Shown here piece after piece: positions 10,282 to 36,809 of a stretch of DNA of 64,000 bases. Source of the DNA: Azonexus sp. (GTDB lineage Bacteria > Pseudomonadota > Gammaproteobacteria > Burkholderiales > Rhodocyclaceae); the NCBI RefSeq assembly GCF_030824335.1, contig NZ_JAVBXX010000008.1, positions 1 through 64,000 of the forward strand. Reading direction: 5' to 3'. The notes beneath the pieces were generated by a model. It had not been told where the DNA came from and ran no database searches. It worked only from the letters and a program-made list of their open reading frames with translations. How positions within the stretch are numbered: the stretch's first letter is position 1; the number at the start of each line of letters is the position of its first letter. A program made the translations under genes and the position numbers.

Positions 10282-10378
10282 GCAAGTGCGAAATCTTGTT
10301 CGGGGGACCACTGATTCGCATCGGGCCTGATCGGTTTCAGTCGACCCAAAGCGGTAGTTGGTGCTTATCAAAGCTGAC

Positions 10379-10445
10379 GCTCAACGTTCAAAATCACCGG
10401 ACTGCGCGGCTTTTCCCGCAGGTCCGGTGCATTGCAGGGTTGGGC
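10379..10445 (-). repeat. attC-like integron recombination site
   Basis: This 67-bp imperfect palindrome has the architecture of an integron attC site read on the minus strand. The outer core boxes are GCCCAAC (complement of 10439-10445, fitting RYYYAAC) and GTTGAGC (complement of 10379-10385, fitting GTTRRRY), and they pair over 7 bp. The inner arms CACCGGAC (10395-10402) and GTCCGGTG (10422-10429) pair perfectly and continue as TGCG/CGCA with one unpaired G at 10421, resembling the extrahelical bases of attC hairpins. It lies 34 bp past the stop of the 10479-11441 gene, where a cassette's attC belongs. No intI gene is in the window. Confidence 0.55.
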
Positions 10446-11487: not shown

Positions 11488-11789
11488 CAGTTATTCACGA
11501 GCAAAAACGTCCGGGTCACTGCTAATAATACGGACACGATTGGGGGAGCGTAAGGTAAAGAATGACATGGAGATTATCCGATGCCGGTCTCCTTATCAAT
11601 CTGCAATCATACGGACAGAGCCAACGTCCGCTATGTGACGATTTCCTGAGAGGCTGCTCATGGCCGAATACCGCCAAAACGACCGCCGCTCAGGATGTCG
11701 ATAATCGGTAGTCAGGTGCAATGAATTCAGGTGCTCAACTCGGTCGAGATTTCGCAGCAAGCGGCCGGCATCAAAAACAGCGCTGCGCG
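11488..11789. other. Unassigned intergenic DNA beside the putative cassette
   Basis: About 300 bp between the cassette boundary and the end of the lysR gene. Short open frames exist on both strands but none has a ribosome site or a recognisable product. The sequence looks like decayed accessory DNA. I found no complete second attC, no transposase fragment and no tRNA. Confidence 0.5.
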
Positions 11790-12737
11790 TCAGGCTGTCG
11801 ATGGCGCGTTTGTCAGTGGACTGTCGATCAATTCGCCGTCCTGCTTTCGCTGCTCGTTGCGGAAGGCTTGCGTGGCCTGCAGGAAGGCATGCAGGACCGG
11901 CGACTCGTCGTCTTTGCGATAGAAACAACTGAGATCCACCGTGGCACTGGGGTTGTCGGAAAAAGGCAGATAAACGATGCCCGGGGGGGCCATCGGGGTG
12001 GCTGATTCCGGTACCACGGTGATGCCGAATCCGCCGGCCACCAGGGCGACGCCGGTGACCGCATCGCCGACGATTTGCGAGATTTCCGGCGTAAACCCCA
12101 TGTTTCGGCATAGTTCGATGATCCGGTCGACGAAATTCGGGCGGGCGCCGGTGGGGAAGAGCACCAGAGGATGCTTGCTCAGTTCGGTGAAGGAGACGCT
12201 GCTTTCCCGGCTGAGCGGATGGGTGTCGTTGACCGCCAGATAGAGCGGTTCGCGCATGATCAGTTCGCTGTGGATGTCGGGCAGCGGGTCGAGCATCCGG
12301 TTGAATCCGACGGAAATACGCCGTTGCCGCAAGGCTTCGATTTGTTCGATTTTCGACATGGTGTGCAGCACGACCCGGACATCCGGGTTGGTGTCCCTGA
12401 ATTGCTGCAGCAATTTTGGGATGGCACTGAAAATCCCGGTGCCAAAAATCCCGATATCCAGGCGGCCAAGCTTGCCCTGGCCGGTGCGCTTCGTGCGCTC
12501 GATCGCCAGTTCAACCAGAGAGCGGATGTTGCGCGCTTCGTGCAGAAAGGTTTCCCCTGCCTGGGTCAGCTCGACGCCACGCGGCGTGCGGATTAATAAC
12601 TGTACCCCGAGTTCTTCTTCCAGTTGCTGAATTTGCCGGGTCAGTGGCGGTTGCGAAATGTGCAGCCGCAGCGCCGCACGACCGATATTCAGTTCTTCGG
12701 CAACGGCGATGAAGTATTTCAGATGGCGGAGATCCAT
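11790..12737 (-). CDS. LysR-type regulator, BenM/CatM-like
   Basis: This 315-residue protein has an N-terminal winged helix (MDLRHLKYFIAVAEELNIGR, SQPPLTRQIQQLEEELGVQL) and a type-2 periplasmic-binding effector domain from about residue 90 (LGRLDIGIFGTGIFSAIPKL, GFNRM, FPTGARPNFVDRI, GDAVTGVALVAGGFGI). The subgroup containing BenM, CatM and CatR responds to muconate or related compounds and binds ATAC-N7-GTAT. A perfect ATAC-N7-GTAT lies 45 bp upstream of its start, in the divergent promoter of the DUF1302 cluster. Matching sites precede dmpC and a candidate sRNA, so it probably controls all three and itself. The effector is unknown; a meta-pathway intermediate is the natural guess. Confidence 0.88.
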   Translation of the reverse strand: MDLRHLKYFIAVAEELNIGRAALRLHISQPPLTRQIQQLEEELGVQLLIRTPRGVELTQAGETFLHEARNIRSLVELAIERTKRTGQGKLGRLDIGIFGTGIFSAIPKLLQQFRDTNPDVRVVLHTMSKIEQIEALRQRRISVGFNRMLDPLPDIHSELIMREPLYLAVNDTHPLSRESSVSFTELSKHPLVLFPTGARPNFVDRIIELCRNMGFTPEISQIVGDAVTGVALVAGGFGITVVPESATPMAPPGIVYLPFSDNPSATVDLSCFYRKDDESPVLHAFLQATQAFRNEQRKQDGELIDSPLTNAPSTA

Positions 12738-12781
12738 GAGGGGGCTGTCGAGCTTCTACCTGTCATTCGATCGACTTGATT

Positions 12782-12850
12782 ATACCTAGAAGGTATCAAG
12801 CGAGGCGATAGATGGTATTGGACGGTAATTCGCTGTCTCCGTAAATTTGT
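12782..12850 (+). promoter_or_regulatory. LysR-type bipartite operator and promoter, copy A
   Basis: ATACCTAGAAGGTAT (12782-12796) is a perfect ATAC-N7-GTAT palindrome of the BenM/CatM type and also fits T-N11-A. Exactly 32 bp from its start lies GGTATTGGACGGTA (12814-12827), whose TTGGAC (12818-12823) serves as a -35; TAAATT (12842-12847) is a possible -10. The implied start is near 12854, placing the palindrome centre at about -65, the standard LysR recognition position. It drives the DUF1302 cluster at 12931, and the divergent lysR start is 45 bp away. Confidence 0.72.
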
Positions 12851-12930
12851 TCCAAAGCAAGGGTTTCCAGTGTCTGCCGTTGGGTCGGCGCTGCGTTTTC
12901 CGCAAAGTTTACTTAAAACAGGAGGGACAA

Positions 12931-14631
12931 ATGAATTACATCAGGACTGCGCAGCACCCCGGGAGTTTCCGACTGAAATCGCTGACCCGTTGCGTGTTGA
13001 CCGCGCTATGTGCGGCAAGCACGATTGGCGGAGCACAGGCGTTCACCATCGACAGTGATAATGCCGACATCAAGATGTCCTGGGACAATACCGTCAAGTA
13101 CAGCGCCGGTTGGCGCATGGCAGATATTGACCGGCGCGTTGCCGACAATTCCATCGGGCCGCAGGTCAACACCAATGATGGCGACCAGAATTTCAAGAAG
13201 GGCGCGATGATTTCGAATCGCGTCGACTTGTTGTCGGAATTCGACTTGCGCTACAAGAAAGACTTCGGTTTCCGGCTCAGTGGTGCCGCCTGGTACGACG
13301 ATGTGTACCAGCACAGCAATGACAACCCAGGTGCGATGGGCGGCATGCTGAGCAACTCGCCTTCGGTCAAGTACAACCGCTTCACCAAGGATACGGAAAA
13401 GCTGCACGGGCGGAAGGCCGAGTTCCGTGACGTCTTCGTCTATGGCAATTTCGCACCCGCCGACATGAATGTGAACGTCAAGGCCGGTCAATACACCCAG
13501 TTGTACGGCGAAACCCTGTACTTCGGTTACAACGGGATCGCTGCAGCGCAAACCCCGCTCGATCTGGTGCGCGCCCTGTCGGTGCCGAATTCCCAGTTCA
13601 AGGAAATTGCGTTGCCGGTCAAGCAGTTGTCGACGCAGGTGCAGGTTAACCAGAACCTGTCCTTTGGCGCCTACTACCAGCTTGAATGGAAGAAAAACCG
13701 CATCCCGGCCGCCGGCAGCTATTTCAGCTTTGCCGACTTTGCCGACGATGGCGGCGAGATCATCAATCTCGGTCTGCATCCGGTGACCGGTACGCCGTGG
13801 GCACTGACCCGGGCCAAGGACCTGGAAGCCTCCGATTCCGGTCAGGGCGGCATGCAGATGAAATACAAGCTCGGTGACTACGAGTTTGGCGTCTACGCTG
13901 CGCAATACCACGACAAGATGCCGCAGTTCTATGCCCGGGGCGATGTGGTTGGCGGCAACAATACCTACTCGCTGGTCTATGCCGAGAAAATTCGCACCGT
14001 CGGGATCAGCGCCAGCACGCTGATTGGCGAAACCAATGTGGCAACTGAAGTCTCGGTGCGCAAGAACCAGCCCTTCGTGGCTACCGGTGTCACGATGATG
14101 ACCGGCCCGGCGTCGAACAACGACAACAACCCGGCCTATCCGAAGGGTGATTCGCTGCATATCAACGTGTCGGCGATCAGTGTGCTCGGTGCCACGCCGT
14201 TGTGGGATGGCGCCAGCTTCGTCGGTGAGTTTGCCTATAACCGCCGTCTGAAGATAACCGATAACGCAGCGGCCCTCGACCCCTTGGCAACGCGTAGCGC
14301 TTCGGCCATTCAGTTTGTTTTCCAGCCCGAGTATTTCCAGGTATTGCCGGGACTCGATGTCCAGGTGCCGATTGGTATCGGTTATGGCCTCAAGGGTAAC
14401 TCTTCGGTCGCCGGCGTTGCCGCGCTGATGCCGATCGAAGGTGGCGGCAATCTCAGTGTCGGCGTCAAGGGCGAGTACCAGAAGGTATGGCAACTGGGTC
14501 TGAACTACACCAAGTACTTCGGCGACAAGGGCTCGGTCATCAAATACAACACCGCCGCCCCGGAACTCTCCTACAAGAATTTCCATGGCGATCGGGACTT
14601 CATTTCCCTGTCGGTCCAGAGAACCTTTTAA
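12931..14631 (+). CDS. DUF1302 family outer-membrane protein
   Basis: ATG 12931 follows a strong CAGGAGGG ribosome site and gives 566 residues. A signal peptide is visible (about residues 1-32, basic start then LTRCVLTALCAASTIGGAQA). The mature part is rich in alternating aromatic and polar strands (NVNVKAGQYTQLYGETLYFG, ALTRAKDLEASDSGQGGMQM) and ends in Phe (SVQRTF), as outer-membrane beta-barrels do. DUF1302 proteins are predicted barrels often encoded beside DUF1329 and RND-exporter genes, as here. The probable role is outer-membrane passage of a hydrophobic compound. First gene of the LysR-controlled envelope cluster. No experimental function is known to me. Confidence 0.85.
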   Translation: MNYIRTAQHPGSFRLKSLTRCVLTALCAASTIGGAQAFTIDSDNADIKMSWDNTVKYSAGWRMADIDRRVADNSIGPQVNTNDGDQNFKKGAMISNRVDLLSEFDLRYKKDFGFRLSGAAWYDDVYQHSNDNPGAMGGMLSNSPSVKYNRFTKDTEKLHGRKAEFRDVFVYGNFAPADMNVNVKAGQYTQLYGETLYFGYNGIAAAQTPLDLVRALSVPNSQFKEIALPVKQLSTQVQVNQNLSFGAYYQLEWKKNRIPAAGSYFSFADFADDGGEIINLGLHPVTGTPWALTRAKDLEASDSGQGGMQMKYKLGDYEFGVYAAQYHDKMPQFYARGDVVGGNNTYSLVYAEKIRTVGISASTLIGETNVATEVSVRKNQPFVATGVTMMTGPASNNDNNPAYPKGDSLHINVSAISVLGATPLWDGASFVGEFAYNRRLKITDNAAALDPLATRSASAIQFVFQPEYFQVLPGLDVQVPIGIGYGLKGNSSVAGVAALMPIEGGGNLSVGVKGEYQKVWQLGLNYTKYFGDKGSVIKYNTAAPELSYKNFHGDRDFISLSVQRTF

Positions 14632-14658
14632 TTCAAAACATAATCAGGAGACTTGAAT

Positions 14659-16002
14659 ATGAACAAGACAACCCTGTGCGCCGCAATCGTCGCACTGCTC
14701 ACTGCTTCGACCGGCTGCCTGGCTGCCGTGTCGGCTGACGAGGCCGCCAAGCTGAAGACCACGCTGACCCCGCTCGGTGGCGAACGCGCCGGCAACAAGG
14801 AAGGCACGATCCCGGCTTGGGATGGCAAGAAGAGCGTTGCCGCCACGCCGAAGGCAGGCGACATTCCGACCAATCCTTTTCCGGGTGAAAAGCCGCTGTT
14901 GCAGATTACGGCCAAGAACATGGCACAGCATGCCGACAAGCTGACCGATGGCACCAAGGCCTTGTTGACCAAGTATCCGGAAAGCTTCCGTCTGGATGTC
15001 TACCCGACACACCGGACCTCGGTTGCGCCGCAATATGTTTACGACAATACCTTGAAGAATGCCACCAACTGCAAGACCAAGAACGAAGGCAATTCGGTCG
15101 AAGGCTGTTACGGCGGTATTCCCTTCCCGATTCCCAAGGCGGGCGCCGAAGCCGTCTGGAATTACCTGTTGCGGGTCGAGGCCGAAGCGACCGAAGTGTC
15201 GTTCAAGAACATTCTCGTGACCTCGGATGGCAACCGCACGCTGGCGACGCATAACGAGCAGGTCAATCAGTATCCGTTCTATTACAAGGATGGCTCGCTT
15301 GAAAAATGGAGCGGCGAGTACTTCCTGCAGCGTTTCTCGACCATTGCACCGCCATTCAAGGCAGGTGAATCGCTGGTCATCCGTGACGGCGTCGATGCGG
15401 CGACGCCGCGCCAGACCTGGCAGTACCTGGTCGGTCAGCGGCGCGTTCGCCGTGCGCCAACCGTCGCCTACGACACGCCGGACTTCGTGTCTTCCGGTGC
15501 CAACTACTTCGACGAAGTGATGGGCATCATGGGCCATCCGGATCGCTATCAGTGGAAACTGGTCGGCAAGAAGGAAATTTACGTTCCCTACAACAGCAAT
15601 GCGCTGGTGACGGCCAAGGAAGAAGAGTTCTTCACCAAGGCCCACGCCAATCCGGACAAAGCCCGCTGGGAATTGCACCGGGTCTGGGAAGTCGAAGCGA
15701 CCGTCGCGGCTGGCAAACGTCATGCGGTGCCGAAGCGTCGTTACTACTTTGACGAGGACACCTGGTTGCTCGTCCTGATGGACGGTTACGACAGCCAGGG
15801 CAAGTTGTGGCGGACCACGCAAGGCTACCCGTACGTGGTGCCGGCCATTCCGGCCGTCGTCATCAAGCCGGTGACGGTATTCGACTTGCAGAAGGGAACC
15901 TCCAGCACGGTGCAGTTCCTCGATTCCTTCAAGGTGCTGCCGAAGCGCAAGCCGGAAATCTATTTCACCGGCGATGCGGTGGCGGCTGACGCCAGCCGTT
16001 AA
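14659..16002 (+). CDS. DUF1329 family periplasmic/outer-membrane protein
   Basis: ATG 14659 lies 8 bp after CAGGAG and gives 447 residues. The signal peptide ends near residue 24 (LLTASTGCLAAVSA); a Cys occurs there but the lipobox is imperfect. Typical DUF1329 blocks are present: LTPLGGERAGNKEGTIPAWD, NPFPGEKPLLQITAKNM, GGIPFPIPK, QRRVRRAPTVAYDTPDF, GKKEIYVPYNS, and YYFDEDTWLLVLMDGYD near the C terminus. The family is thought to have a LolB-like lipid-binding fold. It sits 27 bp after the DUF1302 gene, and the two are recurrent partners. A plausible but unproven role is carrying a hydrophobic ligand between barrel and inner-membrane pump. Confidence 0.85.
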   Translation: MNKTTLCAAIVALLTASTGCLAAVSADEAAKLKTTLTPLGGERAGNKEGTIPAWDGKKSVAATPKAGDIPTNPFPGEKPLLQITAKNMAQHADKLTDGTKALLTKYPESFRLDVYPTHRTSVAPQYVYDNTLKNATNCKTKNEGNSVEGCYGGIPFPIPKAGAEAVWNYLLRVEAEATEVSFKNILVTSDGNRTLATHNEQVNQYPFYYKDGSLEKWSGEYFLQRFSTIAPPFKAGESLVIRDGVDAATPRQTWQYLVGQRRVRRAPTVAYDTPDFVSSGANYFDEVMGIMGHPDRYQWKLVGKKEIYVPYNSNALVTAKEEEFFTKAHANPDKARWELHRVWEVEATVAAGKRHAVPKRRYYFDEDTWLLVLMDGYDSQGKLWRTTQGYPYVVPAIPAVVIKPVTVFDLQKGTSSTVQFLDSFKVLPKRKPEIYFTGDAVAADASR

Positions 16003-16083
16003 TTGAAGCGGCCGGGGGAGCTTTCTCCCGGCGTCGTCTGGCGCACCGGGTTCCCCCGGTGTTGCCCACTTATCCGTTTGGGA

Positions 16084-17202
16084 ATGAACATGAACGCGCG
16101 TAGAAAAACGTCGCGAGGGCTCGCTGCCGTCCTGTTTTCGGCCAGCTTGAGTCTCGTCTGTGGCACCGCTGTCGGTGGTGAAAACCGCAAGCCCCTTGAT
16201 GCGCTGGAACAACCGGCCCGCTTGAGCGAAAAGGCCGGATCTTCCTTGTTGACCGCAATAACCGTCGCCGGGCAACGTCTGGTAGCGGTCGGCGAGCGCG
16301 GCGTGATCCTGTTGTCCGATGATCATGGCGCGCACTGGCGGCAAGCCCGTTCGGTGCCGAGCAGCGTGGCGCTGACGGCGGTGCGTTTCGTCAGCGCCGA
16401 GTCGGGCTGGGCAGTGGGGCATGGCGGTGTCGTGCTGCATAGCCGTGATGGCGGAGAAAGCTGGACGCGCCAGCTCGATGGCCGGCAGGCGGCAGCCATC
16501 GAACAGGCGGCAGCCGATGCCGAAGGCAGCACGGAAACGCCGACCCGGCGCCAGCGCGACGCGGCGCGGATGGTGGCCGAAGGGCCGGACAAGCCGTTTC
16601 TCGACGTCCATTTTCATGATGCACAGCGTGGTCTGGTGGTCGGTGCCTACGGCCTGGCCTTTGCCACGGCGGACGGTGGCCAGACCTGGACCTCGTTGCT
16701 TGGCCGGATAGACAACCCGCGCGCCCGGCATCTCTACCATATTGCGGTCGACGGCCCGAATCTGCTGATTTCCGGCGAACAGGGCACCTTGCTGCGCTCC
16801 ACCGACGGCGGGCAATCCTTTGCCGCATTGCGCATCGACTATCCCGGCACCTTGTTCGGTGCGCTGCTGGCCAACGACCGGTCGATGCTGGTCTTCGGCT
16901 TGCGCGGCAACGCCTTCCGCTCCAGCGATCAGGGCACTTCCTGGCAAAAGGTCGATTTTGGTCTGCCGGTGACGTTGACCGCAGGAACGCGCTTGCGCGA
17001 CGGCCGCCTGGTCGTGGTCGATGAAACCGGCCGGGTCATGCTCAGCCGCAATGCCGGTGCAGCCTTCACGGCACTGAGCACGGCGAAAATCAACGCAGCA
17101 ACCGGTGTGGTCGAAACGGCCGACGGTGGCTTGCTGGTATCTACCCAGCGCGGGCCGGTGCGTCTGCCGGCCGAAGTCCTGGGATCGGAGCAAAAGAAAT
17201 GA
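16084..17202 (+). CDS. YCF48/BNR-repeat periplasmic beta-propeller protein
   Basis: From ATG 16084 the protein is about 372 residues; a second ATG two codons on and a TTG at 16003 are alternatives. A signal peptide (RGLAAVLFSASLSLVCGTAVGG) precedes repeats with the Asp-box/YCF48 pattern: LTAITVAGQRLVAVGERGVI, LLSDDHGAHWRQ, GWAVGHGGVVLHSRDGGESW, FATADGGQTW, LLRSTDGGQSF, FRSSDQGTSW. The plant homologue HCF136 helps assemble photosystem II. In this bacterial context the propeller is more likely a scaffold or partner for the RND exporter, whose gene overlaps by 4 bp (ATGA). Function inferred from neighbours. Confidence 0.82.
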   Translation: MNMNARRKTSRGLAAVLFSASLSLVCGTAVGGENRKPLDALEQPARLSEKAGSSLLTAITVAGQRLVAVGERGVILLSDDHGAHWRQARSVPSSVALTAVRFVSAESGWAVGHGGVVLHSRDGGESWTRQLDGRQAAAIEQAAADAEGSTETPTRRQRDAARMVAEGPDKPFLDVHFHDAQRGLVVGAYGLAFATADGGQTWTSLLGRIDNPRARHLYHIAVDGPNLLISGEQGTLLRSTDGGQSFAALRIDYPGTLFGALLANDRSMLVFGLRGNAFRSSDQGTSWQKVDFGLPVTLTAGTRLRDGRLVVVDETGRVMLSRNAGAAFTALSTAKINAATGVVETADGGLLVSTQRGPVRLPAEVLGSEQKK

Positions 17203-19595
17203 GCTATGTCGCATCCTCGCCCGCCATGGGGGGCGTTTCCCTGCAGGATTTCGATCCGCAATCGGGTTCCGCCATCGAGCGAGCCTTGTTCAACAACCGT
17301 CTGGTCATCGTCCTGCTCTGCCTGATCGCCACCATTTTCCTCGGTTACAAGGCCACCGGCCTGTCGCTCAATGCGGCATTCGAGAAGATGATTCCGACCA
17401 AGCACGAGTACATCGCCAATTTCCTGGAAAACCGTGCCGAACTGGCCGGCGCCGGGAATACGCTGCGCATTGCCATCGAAACGAAAAACGGCACGATTTT
17501 CGCGCCGGCCTATCTCGATGTGGTGCGCCAGATCAATGACGAGCTATTCCTTTATCCGGAGGTCGACCGGCCGTTCATGAAGTCGCTGTGGGCACCGTCG
17601 GTGCGCTGGACCGGCGTGACCGAGGAAGGTCTGGATGGCGGCCCGGTGATTCCCGACGATTACGACGGCTCGCCCGAGAGCCTCGATCAGGTGCGGGTCA
17701 ATGTCGAGCGCTCGGGGGAAATCGGCCAGTTGATTGCCGCCAATTTCCAGTCGAGCATCATTCTGGTGCCGCTGCAGGACAAGCTGGCCGATACCGGCGA
17801 GCGCATCGACTACAACAAACTGTCGCAGCGCCTTGAGGATGTCCGGGCCAAGTACGAAACCGACGACATCAAAATTCATGTCACCGGTTTTGCCAAAGTC
17901 GTGGGCGATTTGCTGGCCGGCCTGCAGCAGGTGATGCTGTTCTTCGCCATGGCCATTGCCATCTGTACCGCCGTCCTTTACTGGTACACCCGCTGTCTGC
18001 GCAGCACGGCGCTGGTCGTCACCTGCTCGGTAGTGGCCGTGATCTGGCTGCTCGGCCTGCTGCCGATGCTGGGTTACGAACTTGACCCGTACTCGGTGCT
18101 GGTGCCTTTCCTGGTGTTCGCCATCGGCATGAGCCACGGTGCGCAGAAGATGAACGGCATCATGCAGGATATCGGGCGTGGCACCGACAAGCTGGTCGCC
18201 GCCCGCTTCACCTTCCGCCGGCTGATTCTGGCCGGGGTCACTGCGCTGCTGGCCGACGCGGTGGGCTTTGCCGTGCTGATGGTGATCCAGATCCAGGTGA
18301 TTCAGGATCTGGCCATTACGGCGAGTATCGGTGTGGCCGTGCTGATTTTCACCAATCTGCTGCTGTTGCCCATCCTGCTGTCCTACACCGGGGTCAGCGC
18401 CGATGCCGCCAAACGCAGTTTGAAAGCCGAACTGGCTGAAGCGGCCGATGCCGGCCATGCCAAGCATCCGTTTTGGGCCTTCCTCGATATGTTCACGCAG
18501 CGCAAGTGGGCCAGCATCGCCATTGCCGTTTCGCTGGTGTTGGGGATTTTCGGTCTGGTCACCAGCTTCCAGTTGAAGATCGGCGATACCGACCAGGGCG
18601 CCCCCGAGTTGCGTCCGGATTCGCGCTACAACCGCGATAACGCTTTCATGGTCGCCAATTACGCGGCCAGCTCCGACGTCTATATCGTGATGGTCAAGAC
18701 GCCGCAATATCACTGCGCGCATTACGACGTGCTGATGCAGGTCGACGCGCTGGAACGCGATCTGCAGCAGTTGCCCGGTGTCGAGGTGACCAGTTCGCTG
18801 GCCGGCCTGAGCAAGCTGGCCGCCGCCGGCATGAACGAAGGCAGCCTGAAGTGGTATGAAATTCCGCGCAGCCAGGACATGTTGAATTCCATCATCACCC
18901 GGGCACCGCGTGAATTATTCAACCAGAACTGCGATCTGCTGACCATTTACGTATATCTGAAGGATCACAAGGCCGACACGTTGAACAGCGTCGTGCAGAC
19001 AGTCGAGCGCTTTGCCCAAGCGAACAACACCGAGCAGGTCCGTTTCCTGTCGGCCGCCGGTAACGCCGGCATCGAGGCGGCGACCAACATCGTCGTGCGC
19101 AAGGCGAATACCGAAATGCTGTTGCTGGTTTATCTGGCCGTGATCGTTCTCGCCTTCATCACCTTCCGCTCCTGGCGTGCCGTGATCTGCGCCGTTGTGC
19201 CGCTGATGCTGACTTCCGTGCTGTGCGAAGCGCTGATGGTCTATCTGAATATCGGTGTCAAGGTTGCCACGCTGCCGGTCATCGCGCTGGGCGTCGGCAT
19301 TGGCGTCGATTACGCACTTTACGTGCTGACCGTGACGCAGGCGCAGTTGAAGGCCGGCCATACCTTGTCCGAGGCTTACTACAAGGCGCTGTTGTTCACC
19401 GGCAAGGTGGTCGTGTTGACCGGCATCACGCTGGGCATCGCCGTCGCCACCTGGGCGTTTTCGCCGATCAAGTTCCAGGCCGATATGGGCATCCTGCTCG
19501 CCTTCATGTTCGTCTGGAACATGCTCGGTGCGCTGATCCTGCTGCCGGCACTCGGCCATTTCCTGCTCAAGCACAAAAAACCGGCCAGCGTCTGA
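17199..19595 (+). CDS. RND-superfamily (MMPL/HAE3-like) exporter
   Basis: This 798-residue inner-membrane protein has two repeated halves. TM1 is near residues 35-56 (LVIVLLCLIATIFLGYKATG), followed by a large periplasmic domain to about 235, then five helices (about 240-405). The second half starts near residue 430 (WASIAIAVSLVLGIFGLVTS), with a periplasmic domain and a last helix bundle (about 640-795). Family signatures include YSVLVPFLVFAIGMSHGAQ and IALGVGIGVDYALYVL. Such HAE3-type pumps move hydrophobic molecules, for example HpnN and hopanoids. No membrane-fusion protein is encoded nearby; the DUF1302/DUF1329/YCF48 proteins may supply the periplasmic and outer-membrane parts. Its start overlaps the upstream stop. 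Confidence 0.88.
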   Translation: MSYVASSPAMGGVSLQDFDPQSGSAIERALFNNRLVIVLLCLIATIFLGYKATGLSLNAAFEKMIPTKHEYIANFLENRAELAGAGNTLRIAIETKNGTIFAPAYLDVVRQINDELFLYPEVDRPFMKSLWAPSVRWTGVTEEGLDGGPVIPDDYDGSPESLDQVRVNVERSGEIGQLIAANFQSSIILVPLQDKLADTGERIDYNKLSQRLEDVRAKYETDDIKIHVTGFAKVVGDLLAGLQQVMLFFAMAIAICTAVLYWYTRCLRSTALVVTCSVVAVIWLLGLLPMLGYELDPYSVLVPFLVFAIGMSHGAQKMNGIMQDIGRGTDKLVAARFTFRRLILAGVTALLADAVGFAVLMVIQIQVIQDLAITASIGVAVLIFTNLLLLPILLSYTGVSADAAKRSLKAELAEAADAGHAKHPFWAFLDMFTQRKWASIAIAVSLVLGIFGLVTSFQLKIGDTDQGAPELRPDSRYNRDNAFMVANYAASSDVYIVMVKTPQYHCAHYDVLMQVDALERDLQQLPGVEVTSSLAGLSKLAAAGMNEGSLKWYEIPRSQDMLNSIITRAPRELFNQNCDLLTIYVYLKDHKADTLNSVVQTVERFAQANNTEQVRFLSAAGNAGIEAATNIVVRKANTEMLLLVYLAVIVLAFITFRSWRAVICAVVPLMLTSVLCEALMVYLNIGVKVATLPVIALGVGIGVDYALYVLTVTQAQLKAGHTLSEAYYKALLFTGKVVVLTGITLGIAVATWAFSPIKFQADMGILLAFMFVWNMLGALILLPALGHFLLKHKKPASV

Positions 19596-19631
19596 GCCGC
19601 CGGTCCACGCTGATCATTGCACGAGGTTGAT

Positions 19632-20675
19632 ATGTACAAGCATCTTCTGGTTCCCCTCGATGGCTCGGGGCTGGCCACCGAAATCGTTTCCCAGGCGGTT
19701 GCCTTCGCCGCGGCGCTGGGCGCGCGGATAAGCTTCTTCACGGCGCAGGCCGATTTTTCTTCGACCGATCAGGGCGCCCTGCAGCGCACGGTCGCGCCCG
19801 ACGCATTTGCCGCCAATCTGGCCGGTGAAGCGCAGGGCATCCTGCAAAAAGCCGAAGCTGCGGCCAGTGCCAAGGGCGTGCCCTGTTCCCTGGTGAGCCG
19901 GGTCAGCGACCGGCCGGCCGCGGCCATCGTGGCCGAAGCCGAAAGATTGGGCTGCGATCTGATTTTCATGGCGTCGCACGGCCACAAAGGCTTGCGTGCG
20001 CTGGTCCTTGGCTCACAGACACAAAAGGTATTGGCCAATGCGCGTTTACCGGTACTGGTGGCAAGCGTGGAAAGCCAGCAGCCGGAACGCGACATGCTGG
20101 TGGCGATAGCCATCATCCAGGATGAACATCGTTCGCTGGCGGCAGTGGTACGCGCCCTGCAGGCTCTGGTCGAAGAGGCCGCCGGTGGGTCGGGACCGCT
20201 GGATGTGCCGCTGCTGCAGGCCATGTTGCGTTATATCGAAGCCTTCCCCGAGCGACTGCACCATCCGAAGGAAAACGATTACCTGTTCCGCCATCTGGCG
20301 GCGCGCACAAAGGCTTTCGATGGGGCCATTGCGCTATTGCGCGCCGAACATCTGGCCGGTGATGCGCTGCTGCAGGCGATGCAGTCGGCAGTCGACGAAT
20401 GGGCGGCGGCGCGGGATGAGGCTGCGCGTCAGGCCGCAAAGATCGCTCTTGCTGGGGCGGTCAAGCGCTTTGCCGAGGCGCAGTGGGCGCACATGAACCT
20501 GGAAGAAAACACCATCTTGCCAGGCGCACGCGAACACCTGACGACGGATGACTGGCGCGAGATCCGGGCGGCTTTCGCCGAGAACGGCGATCCGCGTTTT
20601 GACACCGATCTCGACGACGATTTCAAGCAGTTGTACGCCCGGATCATCCACCTCGCGATAGCCAAGCTTGAATAA
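19632..20675 (+). CDS. Universal stress protein fused to a hemerythrin-like domain
   Basis: From ATG 19632 the product is 347 residues. Residues 1-145 form a UspA domain (MYKHLLVPLDGSGLATEIV, CDLIFMASHGHKGLRALVLG, SQTQKVLANARLPVLV). Residues ~155-345 form a four-helix hemerythrin/HHE domain, whose candidate di-iron ligands lie in DEHRSL, LHHPKENDYLFRHL, LRAEHLAGD and HMNLEENTILPGAREHL. HHE domains bind O2, NO or iron. Linking one to a USP suggests a redox or oxygen sensor rather than an enzyme. It is the last gene of the envelope cluster, just before the phenol hydroxylase operon, whose enzymes need oxygen. Domain calls are firm; the role is inferred. Confidence 0.87.
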   Translation: MYKHLLVPLDGSGLATEIVSQAVAFAAALGARISFFTAQADFSSTDQGALQRTVAPDAFAANLAGEAQGILQKAEAAASAKGVPCSLVSRVSDRPAAAIVAEAERLGCDLIFMASHGHKGLRALVLGSQTQKVLANARLPVLVASVESQQPERDMLVAIAIIQDEHRSLAAVVRALQALVEEAAGGSGPLDVPLLQAMLRYIEAFPERLHHPKENDYLFRHLAARTKAFDGAIALLRAEHLAGDALLQAMQSAVDEWAAARDEAARQAAKIALAGAVKRFAEAQWAHMNLEENTILPGAREHLTTDDWREIRAAFAENGDPRFDTDLDDDFKQLYARIIHLAIAKLE

Positions 20676-20676
20676 A

Positions 20677-20722
20677 TTTATCAAAGCGATTTGTCGGGTT
20701 TGATAAAAAAATAAATCGCTTT
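20677..20722. promoter_or_regulatory. Interlocked inverted repeats, candidate DmpR upstream activating site
   Basis: Two palindromes interlock. TTTATCAAA (20677-20685) pairs with TTTGATAAA (20699-20707), and AAAGCGATTT (20683-20692) pairs with AAATCGCTTT (20713-20722). They lie about 85-130 bp upstream of the inferred sigma-54 transcription start, where XylR/DmpR-family proteins bind paired inverted repeats (TTGATCAA-like half-sites). The second palindrome could also act as a terminator for the upstream gene, but it lacks a clean adjacent T-tract. Confidence 0.5.
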
Positions 20723-20778
20723 ATGTGTTTTTGGTGAATGCGTTTCGGATAGGTGAATTAAAACAGTGGCTTGCTGTA

Positions 20779-20796
20779 TTGGCACACTACCTGCTG
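20779..20796 (+). promoter_or_regulatory. Sigma-54 (-24/-12) promoter of the phenol hydroxylase operon
   Basis: TTGGCAC-N5-CTGCT matches the consensus TGGCAC-N5-TTGCW, with GG (20781-20782) and GC (20793-20794) separated by the required 10 bp. The expected start is near 20806, 31 bp before the GTG of the ferredoxin gene. This rules out longer versions of that reading frame. The regulator is expected to be the DmpR-like protein encoded at 34896-36629. Confidence 0.8.
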
Positions 20797-20836
20797 TTAT
20801 CTGAAAAGAAATGCATATCTCAATGAGGAATTTGTC

Positions 20837-21154
20837 GTGGTGTTCAAGGTTTGTATTGCCGAAACGGGCGAATGCTTCTCTGGTGATCCGGCGCGTTCCG
20901 TCCTTGAGAGCATGTGTCAGCTTGGCCGGCGTGGTATTCCAAAAGGTTGTTGCGGCGGCGCTTGCGGCGTTTGCAAGGTTGAGGTTCTGGCGGGCAGTTA
21001 TGACGTCAAGCCGATGAGCCGCTGTCATGTCAGCGCAGCGGATCAGGCGGCTGGTTGTGTGCTGGCCTGCCGCATCTTTCCCCGCAGCGATCTTGAGTTG
21101 CGGGTGCTCGGCGTGATGCGCTCGGCGCTGCTTGGGCAGGCATCGACGCAGTAG
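20837..21154 (+). CDS. dmpQ: Plant-type [2Fe-2S] ferredoxin, C23O-reactivating (DmpQ/XylT-like)
   Basis: The start is GTG 20837, 6 bp after GAGGAA (a second GTG follows directly); it gives 105 residues. The cluster ligands follow C-x4-C-x2-C (KGCCGGACGVCKV) with the fourth Cys in CVLACRIFP, and the DVKPMSR...P.SDLEL context is typical of XylT/DmpQ. These ferredoxins re-reduce the active-site iron of catechol 2,3-dioxygenase after it is inactivated by substituted catechols such as 4-methylcatechol. The dioxygenase gene follows 53 bp downstream. Here it is the first gene of the operon, unlike in Pseudomonas, where it follows the hydroxylase genes. Confidence 0.88.
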   Translation: MVFKVCIAETGECFSGDPARSVLESMCQLGRRGIPKGCCGGACGVCKVEVLAGSYDVKPMSRCHVSAADQAAGCVLACRIFPRSDLELRVLGVMRSALLGQASTQ

Positions 21155-21207
21155 TTGCAGCAATTGGTTTTCAGTGGTCCGTAGTTAAAAAACAAGGAGA
21201 CAAAGTA

Positions 21208-22143
21208 ATGGCAATGACAGGAGTTTTGCGTCCAGGGCACGCCCAGATTCGCGTGCTGGATCTGGAAGAAGGCGTGCATCACTATCGTGACGTCATGGGT
21301 CTGGTGGAAACCGGGCGGGATGCGCAAGGTCGGGTTTATCTGAAGTGCTGGGATGAACGCGATCACAACAGCGTGATCCTGCGCCAGGCCGATACGGCAG
21401 GTCTCGATTTCTTCGCCTTCAAGGTGCTGGACGAAGCGACGCTTGATGAGCTGGAAAAGAAGCTCAACGACTACGGCGTCAAGACCGAGCGCATGCCGGC
21501 TGGCGAACTGCTGGAAACCGGTGAGCGTGTGCGTTTCCAGATCCCGACCGGCCACCTGATCGAGCTTTATGCCACCAAGACGGCTGTTGGCAACGGCCTG
21601 CAGGTCGAAAACCCGGCGCCGTGGACCAAGGCTTCGGAAAACGGCATCGCGCCGGTGCGCCTCGACCACTGCCTGCTCTACGGCCCGAACGTTGCTGCGG
21701 TGCAGAAGCTGTTTACCGAGGTGCTCGGCTTCTATCTCGTCGAGCGCGTGCTGACGCCGGATGGCCAGGGCAATGTCGCGATCTGGCTGTCGTGCTCACA
21801 CAAGGTTCATGACATCGCCTTCGTCGAACACGCCGAGCCGGGCAAGCTGCATCACGTCTCCTTCATGCTCGAAAGCTGGGAAGAAGTGCTGCGTGCGGGC
21901 GACATCATGTCGATGCACAAGGTTCCAATCGACATCGGCCCCACCCGCCACGGTGTCACGCGTGGTTGCACGATCTACGCCTGGGATCCATCCGGCAACC
22001 GTTTCGAGACTTTCATGGGCGGCTATCAACCTTATCCAGATTACGAGCCGACGACCTGGACTTTCGAAGGGCTTGGCGCTGGCGGTGGTCTCGACTACCC
22101 GCAGCGCAAGCTGCACGAAACCTTCCTGACCGTCGTCAGCTAA
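21208..22143 (+). CDS. dmpB: Catechol 2,3-dioxygenase (extradiol, type I)
   Basis: This 311-residue protein, behind AAGGAGAC, is the size of XylE/DmpB (about 307). It opens ring-cleavage chemistry: catechol plus O2 gives 2-hydroxymuconic semialdehyde. The two vicinal-oxygen-chelate modules are visible, and the Fe(II) ligands are about His154 (VRLDHCLLYG), His215 (GKLHHVSFML) and Glu267 (SGNRFETFMGGY). The extradiol signature runs through HHVSFMLESWEEVLRAGD...GNRFETFMGGY. It is encoded between its ferredoxin partner and the hydroxylase subunits, so one transcript supplies ring hydroxylation and cleavage together. Confidence 0.95.
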   Translation: MAMTGVLRPGHAQIRVLDLEEGVHHYRDVMGLVETGRDAQGRVYLKCWDERDHNSVILRQADTAGLDFFAFKVLDEATLDELEKKLNDYGVKTERMPAGELLETGERVRFQIPTGHLIELYATKTAVGNGLQVENPAPWTKASENGIAPVRLDHCLLYGPNVAAVQKLFTEVLGFYLVERVLTPDGQGNVAIWLSCSHKVHDIAFVEHAEPGKLHHVSFMLESWEEVLRAGDIMSMHKVPIDIGPTRHGVTRGCTIYAWDPSGNRFETFMGGYQPYPDYEPTTWTFEGLGAGGGLDYPQRKLHETFLTVVS

Positions 22144-26761: not shown

Positions 26762-26828
26762 ATACCTTTTTGATATTGAGTTGAATGAAACAAGGTATTG
26801 GACGGTATTGATTTGCCGAACCTAGACT
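26762..26828 (+). promoter_or_regulatory. LysR-type bipartite operator and promoter, copy B
   Basis: ATACCTTTTTGATAT (26762-26776) differs from copy A's palindrome arms at one base. Exactly 32 bp on is GGTATTGGACGGTA (26794-26807), identical over 14 bp to copy A. TTGGAC (26798-26803) is the likely -35; TAGACT (26823-26828) is a weak -10, fitting a promoter that needs an activator. It drives dmpC and the lower meta pathway. With identical geometry to 12782, the same LysR-type regulator should bind both. Confidence 0.7.
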
Positions 26829-26871: not shown

Positions 26872-28332
26872 ATGCAACTAATCAGGAATTTCATTAACGG
26901 TGAATTTGTCGAGGCGACGGGGACAACGCCCTTCGACAAGCGTTCGCCGCTGAATAACCAGGTCATTGCCCAAGTCGTCGAGGCCAGCCGGTCCGATGTC
27001 GATGCCGCCGTGCAGGCGGCGCACGCCGCGCTGAAGGGCGAGTGGGGTGGCTTGAGTACCGACCAGCGCGTCGATCTGCTCTACGGCGTGGCCAACGAAA
27101 TCACCCGCCGCTTCGACGATTTCGTTGCTGCTGAAATGGCCGATACCGGTCAGCCGCATCATGTGATGACCAGCGCCTTCATTCCGCGCGGCGCGGCCAA
27201 TTTCAAGGTCTTCGCCGATGTGGTGAAGAACGTGCCGTCGGAATCCTTCCGCATGGCGACGCCGGACGGCAAGGGCGCGCTGAATTACGCCATTCGCCTG
27301 CCCAAGGGCGTGATCGGTGTCATCTCGCCGTGGAACGCCCCGTTCATGCTGATGACCTGGAAGGTCGGCCCGGCGCTGGCCTGCGGTAATACCGTGGTGG
27401 TCAAACCCTCCGAAGAGACGCCGCTGACCACGACGCTGCTTGGCGAAGTGATGAACAGCGTCGGCATTCCGAAGGGCGTGTTCAACGTCATTCACGGCTT
27501 TGGCCCGAATTCGGCCGGCGAATTCCTGACCCAGCATCCGAAGGTCGACGCCATCACCTTCACCGGCGAAACGCGCACCGGCACGGCGATCATGAAGGCC
27601 GCCTCGGAAGGCATGCGCGATGTGTCCTTCGAACTGGGCGGCAAGAACGCCGCCATTGTTTTTGCCGATGCCGAGTTCGATGCTGCGGTCGACGGCATTT
27701 TTCGCTCGGTTTTCCTCAACTCCGGGCAGGTTTGCCTGGGCACCGAGCGCGTCTATGTCGAGCGGCCGATTTTCGACAAGTTCGTGCAGGCGCTCAAGGT
27801 CAAGGCCGAAGCCGTCAAGTTCGGCCGGCCGGACGACCACAACGCCAACTACGGCCCGCTGATCAGCGCCGAGCACAAGCAGAAGGTCATGTCCTATTAC
27901 GCCAAGGCCAAGGCCGAAGGCGCCACCATCGTCACCGGTGGCGGAGTGCCCGACATGCCGGCCGATCTGCAGGATGGCCACTGGGTGCAACCGACCATCT
28001 GGACCGGCCTGCCGGAAACCGCTTCGGTAGTGCGCGAAGAAATCTTCGGGCCGTGCTGCCACATCAGCCCGTTCGACAGCGAAGACGAAGTCATCAACAA
28101 GGCCAACGACAACGAATACGGCCTGTCGACGACCATCTGGACGACCAACCTGAGCCGTGCCCATCGCGTCGCAGCACGCGTTGAAGTCGGCATCACCTGG
28201 ATCAACAGCTGGTTCCTGCGCGACCTGCGCACGGCGTTCGGTGGTTCAAAGCAATCCGGCATCGGTCGTGAAGGCGGCGTGCATTCGCTCGAGTTCTATA
28301 CCGAGACAAGAAATATTTGCGTGAAGCTCTGA
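26872..28332 (+). CDS. dmpC: 2-Hydroxymuconic semialdehyde dehydrogenase
   Basis: This 486-residue aldehyde dehydrogenase sits behind AAAAAGGAG. Catalytic residues are visible: Glu254 in VSFELGGKNA and Cys288 in FLNSGQVCLGTERV, with the PWNAPFMLMTWKVGPALACG cofactor region. It oxidises the semialdehyde from catechol cleavage to 4-oxalocrotonate with NAD+. It is the first gene after the LysR-type promoter. Specificity is inferred from the flanking dmpE-G genes and from the close fit to DmpC/XylG size (486). Confidence 0.94.
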   Translation: MQLIRNFINGEFVEATGTTPFDKRSPLNNQVIAQVVEASRSDVDAAVQAAHAALKGEWGGLSTDQRVDLLYGVANEITRRFDDFVAAEMADTGQPHHVMTSAFIPRGAANFKVFADVVKNVPSESFRMATPDGKGALNYAIRLPKGVIGVISPWNAPFMLMTWKVGPALACGNTVVVKPSEETPLTTTLLGEVMNSVGIPKGVFNVIHGFGPNSAGEFLTQHPKVDAITFTGETRTGTAIMKAASEGMRDVSFELGGKNAAIVFADAEFDAAVDGIFRSVFLNSGQVCLGTERVYVERPIFDKFVQALKVKAEAVKFGRPDDHNANYGPLISAEHKQKVMSYYAKAKAEGATIVTGGGVPDMPADLQDGHWVQPTIWTGLPETASVVREEIFGPCCHISPFDSEDEVINKANDNEYGLSTTIWTTNLSRAHRVAARVEVGITWINSWFLRDLRTAFGGSKQSGIGREGGVHSLEFYTETRNICVKL

Positions 28333-34895: not shown

Positions 34896-36629
34896 TTACT
34901 CCGCCGGGTGCGGCACCTTCTTGCCCGACAAGCGGTAGGCAACCCGGGCGCGTGTCGTGCCGAGAATTTTGGCGGCGCCGGAGACATTGCCGGCGGCCAG
35001 TTGCAAGGCCTGGGTGACGGCAATTTCCTCCAGTTGATCGAGTGAAATCCGGCTGTCGGCGAGCGCCTCATGCAGGGCTTCCGCGAGTTGCGGCTTGCTG
35101 TCGGTGCTGTCCGACCAGTCTGGCGCCTTGCTTTCAGCGGTCGGGTTGAGTGCCAGTTTTTCGCCACTGGTAAACAGGTGGTCGATATCGATGGCCCCTT
35201 CGTCCGGCGCGAGGATGACACCGCGCTCGATCAGGTTTTCCAGTTCGCGGATGTTGCCAGGCCAGGCGTAACGCATCAGCGCCTCGATTGCCCCCTCGGT
35301 AAAGCCCGTGACCTGCCGTTTATGCAGGGCGCAGAAGCGGTTCATGAAGTGTTCAACGAGCAACAGGATGTCTTCCTTGCGTTCGCGCAAGGGCGGAATC
35401 TGCACCGGGAAAACGTTCAGCCGATAGAACAGGTCGTCGCGGAATTGGCCAGCCTCGACCAGTTTGCGCAGGTCTTCGTTGGTGGCCGCGACGATCCGCA
35501 CATCCACCGTTCTTACCCGGGTGTCGCCAATCCGTTCGATCTCGCCTTCCTGCAGCGCCCGCAACAGCTTGCCCTGAGCCACCAGGCTCAAGGTGCCGAT
35601 TTCGTCGAGGAACAGGGTGCCGCCATCGGCTCGTTCGAAACGTCCCGGACGGGATTGTGCTGCGCCGCTGTAGCCGCCTTTTTCGACGCCGAACAGTTCG
35701 GACTCGATCAGTTGTTCGGGAATCGCCGCGCAATTGATCGCTACAAAGGGCTGTGCCGAGCGGTCGCTGATGTTGTGCAGGGTGCGGGCAAACTGCTCCT
35801 TGCCCACGCCGCTTTCGCCGAGAAAAAGCACCGTGGCCCGCGTCGGCGCGACCCGCTGGATCATGTGGCAGACCGTATTGAAGCCGGAGGAAATGCCGAC
35901 GAGATTGCTTTTTGCCGGGATTTCGTTGGCGCTCGGTTCCTGGCGCTGAAAATAGAACTGACGGTTATTCGGGCTTTGCACGAATTCCTGCGCCTGCAGA
36001 TAACGCAGGTCATTTTCCGGTGCATCCCATTGCTCAACCGCTTTGCCGATAATGCGGCAGGTCGCGTGTCCCATGGCCTTGCATTCGATTTCCCGGACCA
36101 GCATCTGGCGGCCGAGAAAACTGCTCAGGTAACCGTTCGCATAGCCTTGCTGCATCCAGCAAACCGGCGCAGCACTGCGTCCGTGCGCGCGCAAGTGTTC
36201 CTCAGCCTCTGCCGAGTTGTGCCAGATGTATTCACCGTAAAAATGACCGGTTTTGGTATCAACATCCTGGACCACGGTTTCAATCGACATGAATCCTTCC
36301 AGCGCGTGCAGTTGCGGTCCGACGGCAAACGCATCGAAGTCGCTCCGGTTGCGGTGTTCGCGCCGCACCATGTCGGCATCGCGGGCGCCGGACTGGTAGC
36401 CCATGCGGGAGAGCAGGCCGCGCGCCTTGTCACTGCCCAGCGTTTCGATCAACTCCCGGCGCAACGACGCAATGGCAGCGCTGTGCAGCAACAGCATACG
36501 TTGCTGATCCAGCCAGATTTCCCCATCGCCCGGCGAAAAGAGCAGACGCTCGGTGATGTCGTCAATGTCGGGAAACCGGTGTTTCAGCCGGTCATTGGGT
36601 AATTGCAGACGAATGGTTTTGCTCGACAT
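34896..36629 (-). CDS. dmpR: Phenol-responsive sigma-54 activator (DmpR/MopR-like)
   Basis: This 577-residue protein has an XylR_N sensory domain (about 20-140), a V4R region (about 140-200), an AAA+ domain (about 245-475) and a Fis-type helix-turn-helix at the C terminus. Residues aligned with the MopR phenol pocket (His106, Trp134) are His108 and Trp136. The MopR zinc ligands (Cys155, Glu178, Cys181, Cys189) correspond in spacing to Cys157, Glu180, Cys183 and Cys191. Walker A is GESGVGKE (271-278) and Walker B LFLDEIG. The sigma-54-contacting loop reads GGYSGA (318-323) instead of GAFTGA. It should activate the promoter at 20779. It is transcribed toward the GST gene. Confidence 0.94.
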   Translation of the reverse strand: MSSKTIRLQLPNDRLKHRFPDIDDITERLLFSPGDGEIWLDQQRMLLLHSAAIASLRRELIETLGSDKARGLLSRMGYQSGARDADMVRREHRNRSDFDAFAVGPQLHALEGFMSIETVVQDVDTKTGHFYGEYIWHNSAEAEEHLRAHGRSAAPVCWMQQGYANGYLSSFLGRQMLVREIECKAMGHATCRIIGKAVEQWDAPENDLRYLQAQEFVQSPNNRQFYFQRQEPSANEIPAKSNLVGISSGFNTVCHMIQRVAPTRATVLFLGESGVGKEQFARTLHNISDRSAQPFVAINCAAIPEQLIESELFGVEKGGYSGAAQSRPGRFERADGGTLFLDEIGTLSLVAQGKLLRALQEGEIERIGDTRVRTVDVRIVAATNEDLRKLVEAGQFRDDLFYRLNVFPVQIPPLRERKEDILLLVEHFMNRFCALHKRQVTGFTEGAIEALMRYAWPGNIRELENLIERGVILAPDEGAIDIDHLFTSGEKLALNPTAESKAPDWSDSTDSKPQLAEALHEALADSRISLDQLEEIAVTQALQLAAGNVSGAAKILGTTRARVAYRLSGKKVPHPAE

Positions 36630-36743: not shown

Positions 36744-36809
36744 ATACCTTATGGGTATGGTTTGGCGCTCCGAATTATATTGGACCTTATTTTCCAGGCC
36801 ACGCATCAT
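36744..36809 (+). promoter_or_regulatory. LysR-type bipartite operator and promoter, copy C
   Basis: ATACCTTATGGGTAT (36744-36758) is a perfect ATAC-N7-GTAT palindrome. At the same 32-bp offset lies TATATTGGACCTTA (36776-36789), sharing 10 of 14 bases and the exact TATTGGAC core with copies A and B. TTGGAC (36780-36785) and CATCAT (36804-36809) could be -35 and -10, giving a start near 36816 with the palindrome centred at about -65. No protein gene lies downstream on this strand. The palindrome is 115 bp from the divergent dmpR start and could also affect dmpR. Confidence 0.6.

Follow-up and report, generated by a model that had tools for sequence, protein, structure and literature searches.

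The closest described counterpart of the gene set treated here is AmeABCD of Castellaniella defragrans, which comprises the same four protein families and was proposed to be a tetrapartite exporter of the resistance-nodulation-division (RND) type (PMC6394551). Deletion of ameABCD led to less growth on limonene and other hydrocarbons, and the accumulation of Nile Red rose slightly in CCCP-treated, limonene-grown cells (PMC6394551). The families have also been tied to phenol. DUF1302, PF07044, COG1033 and COG4447 were predicted in the phenol regulons of AphT, AphS and AphR, with all four under AphT in Dechloromonas, Methylibium and Azoarcus BH72 (in BH72 together with a universal stress protein, an MCP and LapR), and these envelope genes are thought to aid coping with toxic aromatics (PMC6449761; what we cite of this and of the papers below other than PMC6394551 comes from parts of their texts). 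Here we describe such a cassette in Azonexus sp., on a 64,000-nucleotide stretch (positions 1 to 64,000 of contig NZ_JAVBXX010000008.1) that is called the window below. We see about an even chance that this is an AmeABCD-type cassette with an optional universal stress protein (USP)-hemerythrin gene, placed in the phenol meta-cleavage regulon through a LysR-type activator, and that it clears phenolics from the inner membrane.

The cassette consists of the following genes:

12931..14631, + strand, DUF1302 outer-membrane barrel with a porin-like model (PF06980, 442 bits; pLDDT 87.0)
14659..16002, + strand, DUF1329 periplasmic protein (PF07044, 437 bits; predicted LolA fold, residues 158-447 of the model)
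16084..17202, + strand, YCF48-type beta-propeller with an N-terminal signal-like stretch (PSII_BNR/YCF48, PF14870, 83 bits)
17199..19595, + strand, RND/MMPL pump, HAE3-like (PF03176 MMPL, 79 bits)
19632..20675, + strand, Usp domain fused to a hemerythrin HHE domain, the optional fifth gene (Usp 89 bits, Hemerythrin 58.8 bits)

All five are present as a first-pass annotation of this DNA had claimed, and its tight packing and 4-bp overlap between the propeller and pump genes agree with the coordinates, the gaps and the Pfam domains. The intergenic gaps are 27, 81, -4 and 36 bp (with starts taken at 14659 for DUF1329, 16084 for YCF48 and 19632 for the USP gene), and -4 is also the most frequent spacing among relatives (the twelve commonest spacing classes comprise 63 loci, 27 of them at -4). 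All Pfam matches of the five products exceed their cut-offs. Signal-peptide-like N-termini, judged by eye rather than with a predictor, are found on the DUF1302, DUF1329 and YCF48 products, and the YCF48 product matches Ycf48 structures among the PDB sequences (phmmer, best 1.9e-15). No membrane-fusion or TolC family was matched among the five products (Pfam, E 0.001), a search that did not extend to the rest of the genome. The RND product matches MMPL alone and not ACR_tran, and the cassette has no adaptor gene; it thus differs from a classical HAE1 tripartite pump. The Pfam scan of the products supports the earlier view of an RND system that is non-classical, has several parts and carries neither adaptor nor TolC genes in its cassette.

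The cassette shares an operator with the gene that opens the lower pathway, and a regulator gene adjoins it:

12782..12827, + strand, two-block operator ATAC-N7-RTAT-N17-GGTATTGGACGGTA before DUF1302 (motif search, conservation)
26762..26807, + strand, two-block operator again, in a second copy before dmpC (motif search)
26872..28332, + strand, dmpC-type aldehyde dehydrogenase, whose gene opens the lower meta-cleavage set (PF00171, 513 bits)
11790..12737, - strand, LysR-type regulator, CatR/BenM-like, divergent from the cassette (Pfam HTH_1 and LysR_substrate)

The 14-mer GGTATTGGACGGTA lies at 12814 and 26794 and ATAC-N7-RTAT at 12782 and 26762, with the same 17-bp spacer, which makes the sharing with dmpC sharper than had been claimed. 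These two are the only exact copies in the whole assembly when spacers of 14-20 are allowed; a backwards-read control gave 0, and none of 100 shuffles of the window held two operator matches at up to 3 mismatches. Across 140 loci (2.8 Mb; both surveys described below pooled, some loci counted twice) there were 33 forward matches at ≤2 mismatches, made up of 25 distinct sequences; the reverse strand gave none at that threshold, and neither did spacers of 12-16 or 18-22. Thirty letter-shuffled motifs gave 1 match altogether at ≤4 mismatches over the same loci. A third operator-like site in the window (36744-36789, 4 mismatches) lies upstream of the DmpR-type gene and points away from that gene.

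The sequence ATACCTAGAAGGTAT shows the T-N11-A form. This is the form of the AphT site, which has been likened to the CatR and ClcR motifs (PMC6449761). Features of the AphT regulons are thus present in the window, namely a T-N11-A-type site before lower-pathway genes and an adjoining LysR gene of the CatR/ClcR type. The best NCBIfam matches of the LysR product are AlsR, PRK09986, HcaR, BenM and CatM, all under cut-off. The divergent LysR gene (11790-12737), which the first-pass annotation left unnamed, is likely the regulator of the cassette, and it is probably AphT. Within the second block stands TTGGAC, followed 17-18 bp further by GTAAAT (cassette) or CTAGAC (dmpC), and to judge from the letters these could be -35/-10 pairs. 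Terminator-like sites in 12600-21300 number 10 versus 8.5 expected.

Relatives were collected in two surveys, which overlap in part (contigs of 57082, 224517, 210524, 24156 and 12563 bp turn up in both, to judge by length) and whose counts are not additive. Survey 1 scanned contigs with three RND proteins and took the best 80 of at least 596 matched stretches (587 confirmed). Survey 2 looked for RND relatives at E ≤1e-250 in 199 genomes drawn from the window's family, and used 60 of the 62 places other than the window's own. Gene calls in the relatives were simple and starts may be off, and Fisher values for the survey counts take no account of kinship. All four genes DUF1302, DUF1329, YCF48 and RND occur in 76/80 survey-1 loci, contiguous and in that order in 71/80; in five loci the DUF1302-DUF1329 pair stands apart, some kilobases upstream of YCF48-RND. 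The loci without all four genes are L050 and L105, on short contigs, and L080 and L089, which have YCF48 and RND alone despite long left flanks and resemble the split layout told of Pseudomonas putida (PMC10866462). A hydrolase gene lies near the cassette in L088 (466-1623, Peptidase_S9/FrsA-like), L103 (4008-5168) and L081 (5401-6558), with starts alike by eye. In survey 2, 38/199 genomes have an RND relative (63 places counting the window's own). The four genes are complete in 56/60 places, and the other 4 have RND near a contig end. One family genome (G485) has five RND copies of the cassette type.

The operator was found at ≤4 mismatches in 11/80 survey-1 loci (L035, L036, L037, L039, L040, L041, L042, L044, L045, L048 and L062). 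The remaining 69 need ≥6 mismatches, and on the reverse strand none of the 80 loci has a match with fewer than 6. Ten of these loci, all except L062, were picked as a set after the tree described below had been seen. Phenol genes (hydroxylase or catechol 2,3-dioxygenase, C23O, at ≥45% or dmpC at ≥60% identity, within the flanks available) accompany the cassette in 8/10 loci of this set versus 0/70 of the others. These thresholds exclude L050 and L111, whose FAA-hydrolase gene is 57-63% identical to a window meta-pathway gene, and L037, one of the two loci of the set without phenol genes, has 1,277 bp on that side. For an inner set of eight loci the figures are 6/8 versus 2/72 for phenol genes and 8/8 versus 2/72 for a divergent LysR gene. 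A LysR relative (≥50%) divergent from DUF1302 occurs in 10/80 survey-1 loci and in 14/60 family loci, and all 14 of the latter carry the operator at ≤1 mismatch. L167 has the operator at 2 mismatches without a divergent LysR gene. Phenol hydroxylase is present in 12/60 family loci, 10 of them among the 14 with LysR, the others being L160 and L174. The operator precedes both the cassette and dmpC in L035, L044, L045 and L048, which are all four loci that show dmpC at ≥60%. In L035, the closest relative, two operators lie between LysR and DUF1302 (5375-5420 and 5583-5628, with 1 and 0 mismatches) in addition to the dmpC copy. L040 comes from a laboratory strain, Azoarcus indigens DSM 12121, in which phenol genes adjoin the cassette.

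The aromatic, and specifically phenol, linkage of the cassette is supported by the shared operator, its recurrence in relatives and the phenol genes nearby. The first-pass annotation had suggested counting how often the quintet lies beside dmp/phenol genes; the association holds for 8/10 loci of the operator set and for none of the 70 others, with the fifth gene being optional.

RND trees were built by a quick method. In a tree of 84 RND proteins, the window and the ten operator loci form a set of 11 rows (support 92), within which 9 rows, without L042 and L048, have support 99; the long branches of AmeD and of a second RND copy in the window's own genome make their placement in this tree unsure. 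AmeD here means L119 of the C. defragrans type strain, which has three RND relatives 65%, 64% and 38% identical to the window RND. The 38% copy (L119) sits in a contiguous cassette and was taken as ame because its DUF1302 and DUF1329 frames, at 605 and 451 aa, have the published AmeA and AmeB lengths. The three RNDs of this strain are L118, L103 and L119; the paper on strain 65Phen lists one HAE3 pump (PMC6394551). In a second tree with 60 family copies added, the window falls in a set of 23 rows (support 97) that includes all 14 family copies with LysR and operator, as well as L037, L039 and L044. It also includes five operator-less copies (L143, L146, L147, L148 and L150), and L042, L048, L062, L167, L160 and L174 lie outside it. 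We therefore rejected the idea that the operator-bearing copies are one exclusive RND clade, as the second tree puts L042 and L048 outside and the five operator-less copies inside. The operator-bearing copies are mostly one clade, yet the operator would have been gained, moved or kept outside it and lost inside it. Members of the 23-row set come from the window's family, one Alteromonadaceae genome (Gammaproteobacteria) and one Zavarzinia genome (Alphaproteobacteria); outside it, L042 is from Hydrocarboniphaga, a further gammaproteobacterium. The operator is thus kept at fixed spacing in alpha-, beta- and gammaproteobacterial copies, although the hosts of L039 (a 9.4-kb contig), L044 and L045 are less sure because these are metagenome bins.

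In L143, L146, L147, L148 and L150, whose RND is 81-82% identical, no LysR gene, operator or phenol genes were found within the stretch examined. Thiolase, dehydrogenase or AMP-binding enzyme genes adjoin the cassette in L143, L147, L148 and L150 (L146 was not scanned). Operator-less copies beside other enzymes suggest that the cassette is a general unit and that phenol is one of its uses. The four genes are found on plasmids too (L200, L201, L202, L203). On a Massilia putida plasmid they lie near hydroxyquinol dioxygenase genes, on a plasmid of P. putida YC-AE1 near pobA and an MCP gene, and on an Azoarcus KH32C plasmid near fatty-acid ligase and universal stress protein genes. On a P. aeruginosa plasmid a transposase gene separates the YCF48-RND pair from the DUF1302-DUF1329 pair. 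The window's own genome has a second, divergent quartet (L120, G000:C26:36681-54680, at 9941-17800) in the order YCF48-RND-DUF1302-DUF1329, with an RND 26% identical; its neighbour is an FAA-hydrolase gene that shares 55% identity with one from the window's meta pathway.

Downstream of the cassette, the window encodes a ferredoxin, a catechol 2,3-dioxygenase-like protein, a Phenol_Hydrox subunit, a reductase, the aldehyde dehydrogenase (dmpC) and two enzymes of the FAA-hydrolase fold. We take the dmp gene names to apply to these phenol-degradation neighbours. Two further features belong to this region:

20779..20795, + strand, sigma-54-like -24/-12 site before the ferredoxin/phenol hydroxylase genes (TTGGCACACTACCTGCT, 3 mismatches)
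34896..36629, - strand, DmpR/XylR-type sigma-54 activator (XylR_N, V4R, Sigma54_activat)

The sigma-54-like site is weak by itself because the window holds 12 such sites at 3 mismatches versus 9.6 expected from simple shuffles. A frame at 37036-38379 (- strand) resembles a benzoate-type permease, BenE, by eye from its translation.

The fifth gene is recurrent but optional. A full-length USP-hemerythrin gene lies directly downstream of the RND gene in 3/10 loci of the ten-locus set and in 1/70 others (4/80), and a strict quintet was rejected on the count of three in the ten-locus set. The rest of that set comprises two loci with a USP-only gene, L040 and L041, and five without a USP-hemerythrin match. 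Partial matches resembling USP-only genes occur in nine family loci. The fusion gene is present in 30/199 family genomes, together with an RND relative in 20/198. Among the 37 fusion-gene places in family genomes other than the window's own, 11 are immediately downstream of the pump gene (≤182 bp, same strand), and 11 further ones share a contig with an RND place at 4.4 to 724 kb. One in-frame stop falls within the match in 8/38 USP-hemerythrin places, where USP and HHE are perhaps separate genes. The His and H-x3-E positions, which we take to be the metal ligands of the hemerythrin HHE domain, are kept in all six aligned fusion proteins. A literature search on USP-hemerythrin fusions gave no relevant account among the matches listed, judged by title.

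The DUF1302 model (pLDDT 87.0, pTM 0.84) was compared with known structures. By VIA the best match is OccK3 (Z 18.5), tied with maltoporin and many OprD/Occ porins (Z 17.8-18.5), a BenF-like porin included, with the alginate exporter AlgE at Z 16.9; Foldseek placed OmpF-type porins first. These rankings point to a porin-type barrel of unsure subfamily, and the sole Pfam family matched is DUF1302. DUF1302 had 0 phmmer matches to PDB sequences, and DUF1329 a single one at chance level (E 0.82). The DUF1329 model (pLDDT 87.5, pTM 0.88) matches LolA3 (VIA Z 21.2, rmsd 2.6, 234 residues aligned) over residues 158-447 and the DUF1329 structure 4z48 at Z 19.0, with the first 157 residues barely covered. 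DUF1329 is thus predicted to have a LolA fold, as would suit a carrier more than an adaptor. The earlier proposal that the DUF proteins replace an adaptor and an outer-membrane channel is refined by these models of DUF1302 as a porin-type barrel and of DUF1329 as more like a carrier. The RND sequence matches HpnN and MmpL structure chains. A crude hydropathy scan gave two long gaps between peaks, at about 54-241 and 458-637, and did not resolve 12 segments. S312-H313 and D704-Y705, one pair in each RND half, are invariant in 84/84 sequences, among them the own-genome copy at 26% and the presumed AmeD. These Ser-His and Asp-Tyr pairs presumably form a proton relay, by analogy with MmpL and HpnN.

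From the composition and order of the genes, the conserved operator, the predicted folds and the conserved membrane residues, we infer a scheme that extends to the identity of AphT, its binding, induction, protein contact, substrate and direction. The LysR-type activator (probably AphT) would bind the two-block operator upstream of the cassette and of dmpC, and during phenol or cresol degradation it would turn on the lower pathway and the pump together. Driven by the proton gradient, the RND protein may extract hydrophobic phenolics, or other compounds dissolved in the membrane, from the inner membrane and hand them to DUF1329 as a LolA-fold carrier, the YCF48 propeller serving as a docking part. 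The cargo would exit through the DUF1302 porin. USP-hemerythrin may be a cytoplasmic accessory linked to stress or to oxygen and iron. By analogy, the pairing of RND and LolA-like proteins elsewhere (PMC8253772, PMC6304351) speaks for a carrier route; in one case an MMPL-LolA fusion beside a predicted porin is raised on C28 alkane (PMC6304351).

Several points weigh against this scheme. Phenol is small and fairly soluble, and therefore an envelope-wide pump for it is not obviously needed. Seventy of the 80 survey-1 loci, all outside the ten-locus set, have no phenol genes nearby by the thresholds used, and both the operator and phenol genes are missing from five close copies that fall within the window's clade. 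A stricter sigma-70 scan of 12600-21300 gave 0 sites versus 2.9 expected, and so no promoter near the operator. The best NCBIfam model for the RND product, TIGR00921 (HAE3), scores 167.6 bits, under its cut-off of 351.9; the presumed AmeD, at 135.0 bits, is likewise under it. Identity between the window RND and the presumed AmeD is 38%, AmeD lies far outside in the tree, and with two paralogs at 64-65% in the same strain the window cassette is of the same kind as AmeABCD rather than its ortholog. Real-time dye efflux was nearly equal with and without ameABCD, leaving direction unproved (PMC6394551). The P. putida relatives are required for Tween 20 use, which suits uptake or envelope work equally (PMC10866462), and the authors describing the MMPL-LolA protein propose that it carries the porin itself (PMC6304351).

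The cassette might also work in the opposite direction. The DUF1302 porin and DUF1329 carrier would then import poorly soluble aromatics or esters, with RND aiding delivery to the inner membrane, a reading we regard as unlikely; phenol itself enters cells without a pump. The nearness of the DUF1302 model to Occ/OprD porins, which include OpdK with vanillate and a BenF-like porin, agrees with uptake, as do the requirement for PP_0765/PP_0766/PP_2018/PP_2019 in the use of Tween 20 by P. putida (PMC10866462) and a Delftia DUF1329 gene deletion that hampered growth on phenanthrene (told in PMC13101534). AlgE, an exporter, is nearly as close to the model, however, so the fold does not set the direction; moreover, the slight rise in dye accumulation under CCCP on ameABCD deletion and the description of HpnN pumps as moving hopanoids out to the periplasm argue for export (PMC6394551). 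Export need not concern the aromatic. If the exported molecule were a lipid or resembled a hopanoid, and served to harden the outer membrane against phenol, the matches of RND to HpnN and MmpL structures and the LolA-like and RND pairing proposed for lipid-like aryl polyenes (PMC8253772) would be accounted for. We consider this quite unlikely, as no lipid-synthesis gene was found in the cassette (Pfam) and several of the non-phenol relatives examined adjoin catabolic genes, though a long-chain fatty-acid ligase gene lies close to the cassette in one.

That DUF1302 and DUF1329 serve outer-membrane vesicle structures seems very improbable. Both proteins were detected in Delftia nanopods (PMC3110197), and the name 'Nanopod' was given to a cluster in an anaerobic benzene degrader that encodes DUF1329, a universal stress protein, YCF48 and MMPL (PMC13101534), but the same Delftia list has many outer-membrane proteins (PMC3110197). 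Highly improbable, in our view, is a passenger that came into the phenol regulon by transfer and has no role in phenol use. The five 81-82% identical copies without operator, LysR or phenol genes, which nest among operator-bearing ones, would fit it; the fixed spacing of the operator in alpha-, beta- and gammaproteobacterial copies and its presence outside the main clade (L042, L048, L062, L167) speak against it. Beyond the export scheme preferred here, an extended form of it, which we hold to be unlikely, is a five-part machine for bacteria that degrade membrane-active aromatics, in which the RND pump, the LolA-like carrier and the porin make a carrier-based route unlike a tripartite tunnel, USP-hemerythrin gates or reports, and export is coupled to phenol hydroxylase. 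If true, the fusion would sense the cytoplasmic oxygen or iron state and tie export to an oxygen-dependent hydroxylase.

Compared with known systems, the cassette described here is most like AmeABCD in having the four families in the same order, an HAE3-like RND and a place beside catabolic genes for a hydrophobic growth substrate; it differs in that ame belongs to a monoterpene island and a USP-hemerythrin gene is unmentioned in the available account. The absence of an established mechanism for such clusters, which the first-pass annotation had put forward to its knowledge, was rejected as a claim of novelty. Such clusters are described in five papers (PMC6394551, PMC10866462, PMC7012976, PMC13101534, PMC6449761), beyond which literature searches gave no further account, and both AmeABCD (PMC6394551) and the AphT/AphS/AphR link (PMC6449761) were already published. 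The phenol-hydroxylase cluster of Zoogloea oleivorans has DUF1302 and DUF1329 beside ferredoxin, catechol 2,3-dioxygenase and dmpKLMNOP, although its figure legend names no YCF48 or RND gene (PMC7012976). The 'Nanopod' cluster of Ca. Anaerobenzenivorax ORM2a likewise combines a porin-like protein, DUF1329, a universal stress protein, YCF48 and MMPL with an aromatic substrate, but it is anaerobic and the available text does not name DUF1302; its table and text disagree on which protein is the stress protein (PMC13101534). In P. putida, PP_0765/PP_0766 and PP_2018/PP_2019 encode DUF1302 and DUF1329 proteins, a pump and a periplasmic protein that share one phenotype and have predicted contacts, but they are split over two loci and the phenotype concerns Tween 20 (PMC10866462). 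ApeL-ApeM-ApeN of aryl polyene clusters also pairs a LolA-like carrier with an RND pump, but with a LolB-like partner, a biosynthetic cargo and, in the text available, no porin or propeller named (PMC8253772). In strain EbN1, an 'efflux' cluster, its gene families unstated in the available text, is expressed with p-ethylphenol degradation (PMC4630880). HAE3-like RND and DUF1302/DUF1329/YCF48 cassettes thus recur beside monoterpene, phenol, benzene and ester catabolism, and the present locus makes the question of cargo and direction testable in laboratory strains by offering a defined substrate pathway, a defined operator and close natural variants in which the operator and the fusion gene are present or absent. 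The likeness to the Aph regulons lies in the same four families, and L036 and L155 here hold an XylR/DmpR-type regulator. As the cassette type and the phenol link are already in print, the locus counts as a further, well-supported example of a known machine; what it adds to the Aph prediction is the fixed 17-bp two-block site in 140 loci, the spread past betaproteobacteria, the predicted folds and the hemerythrin fusion.

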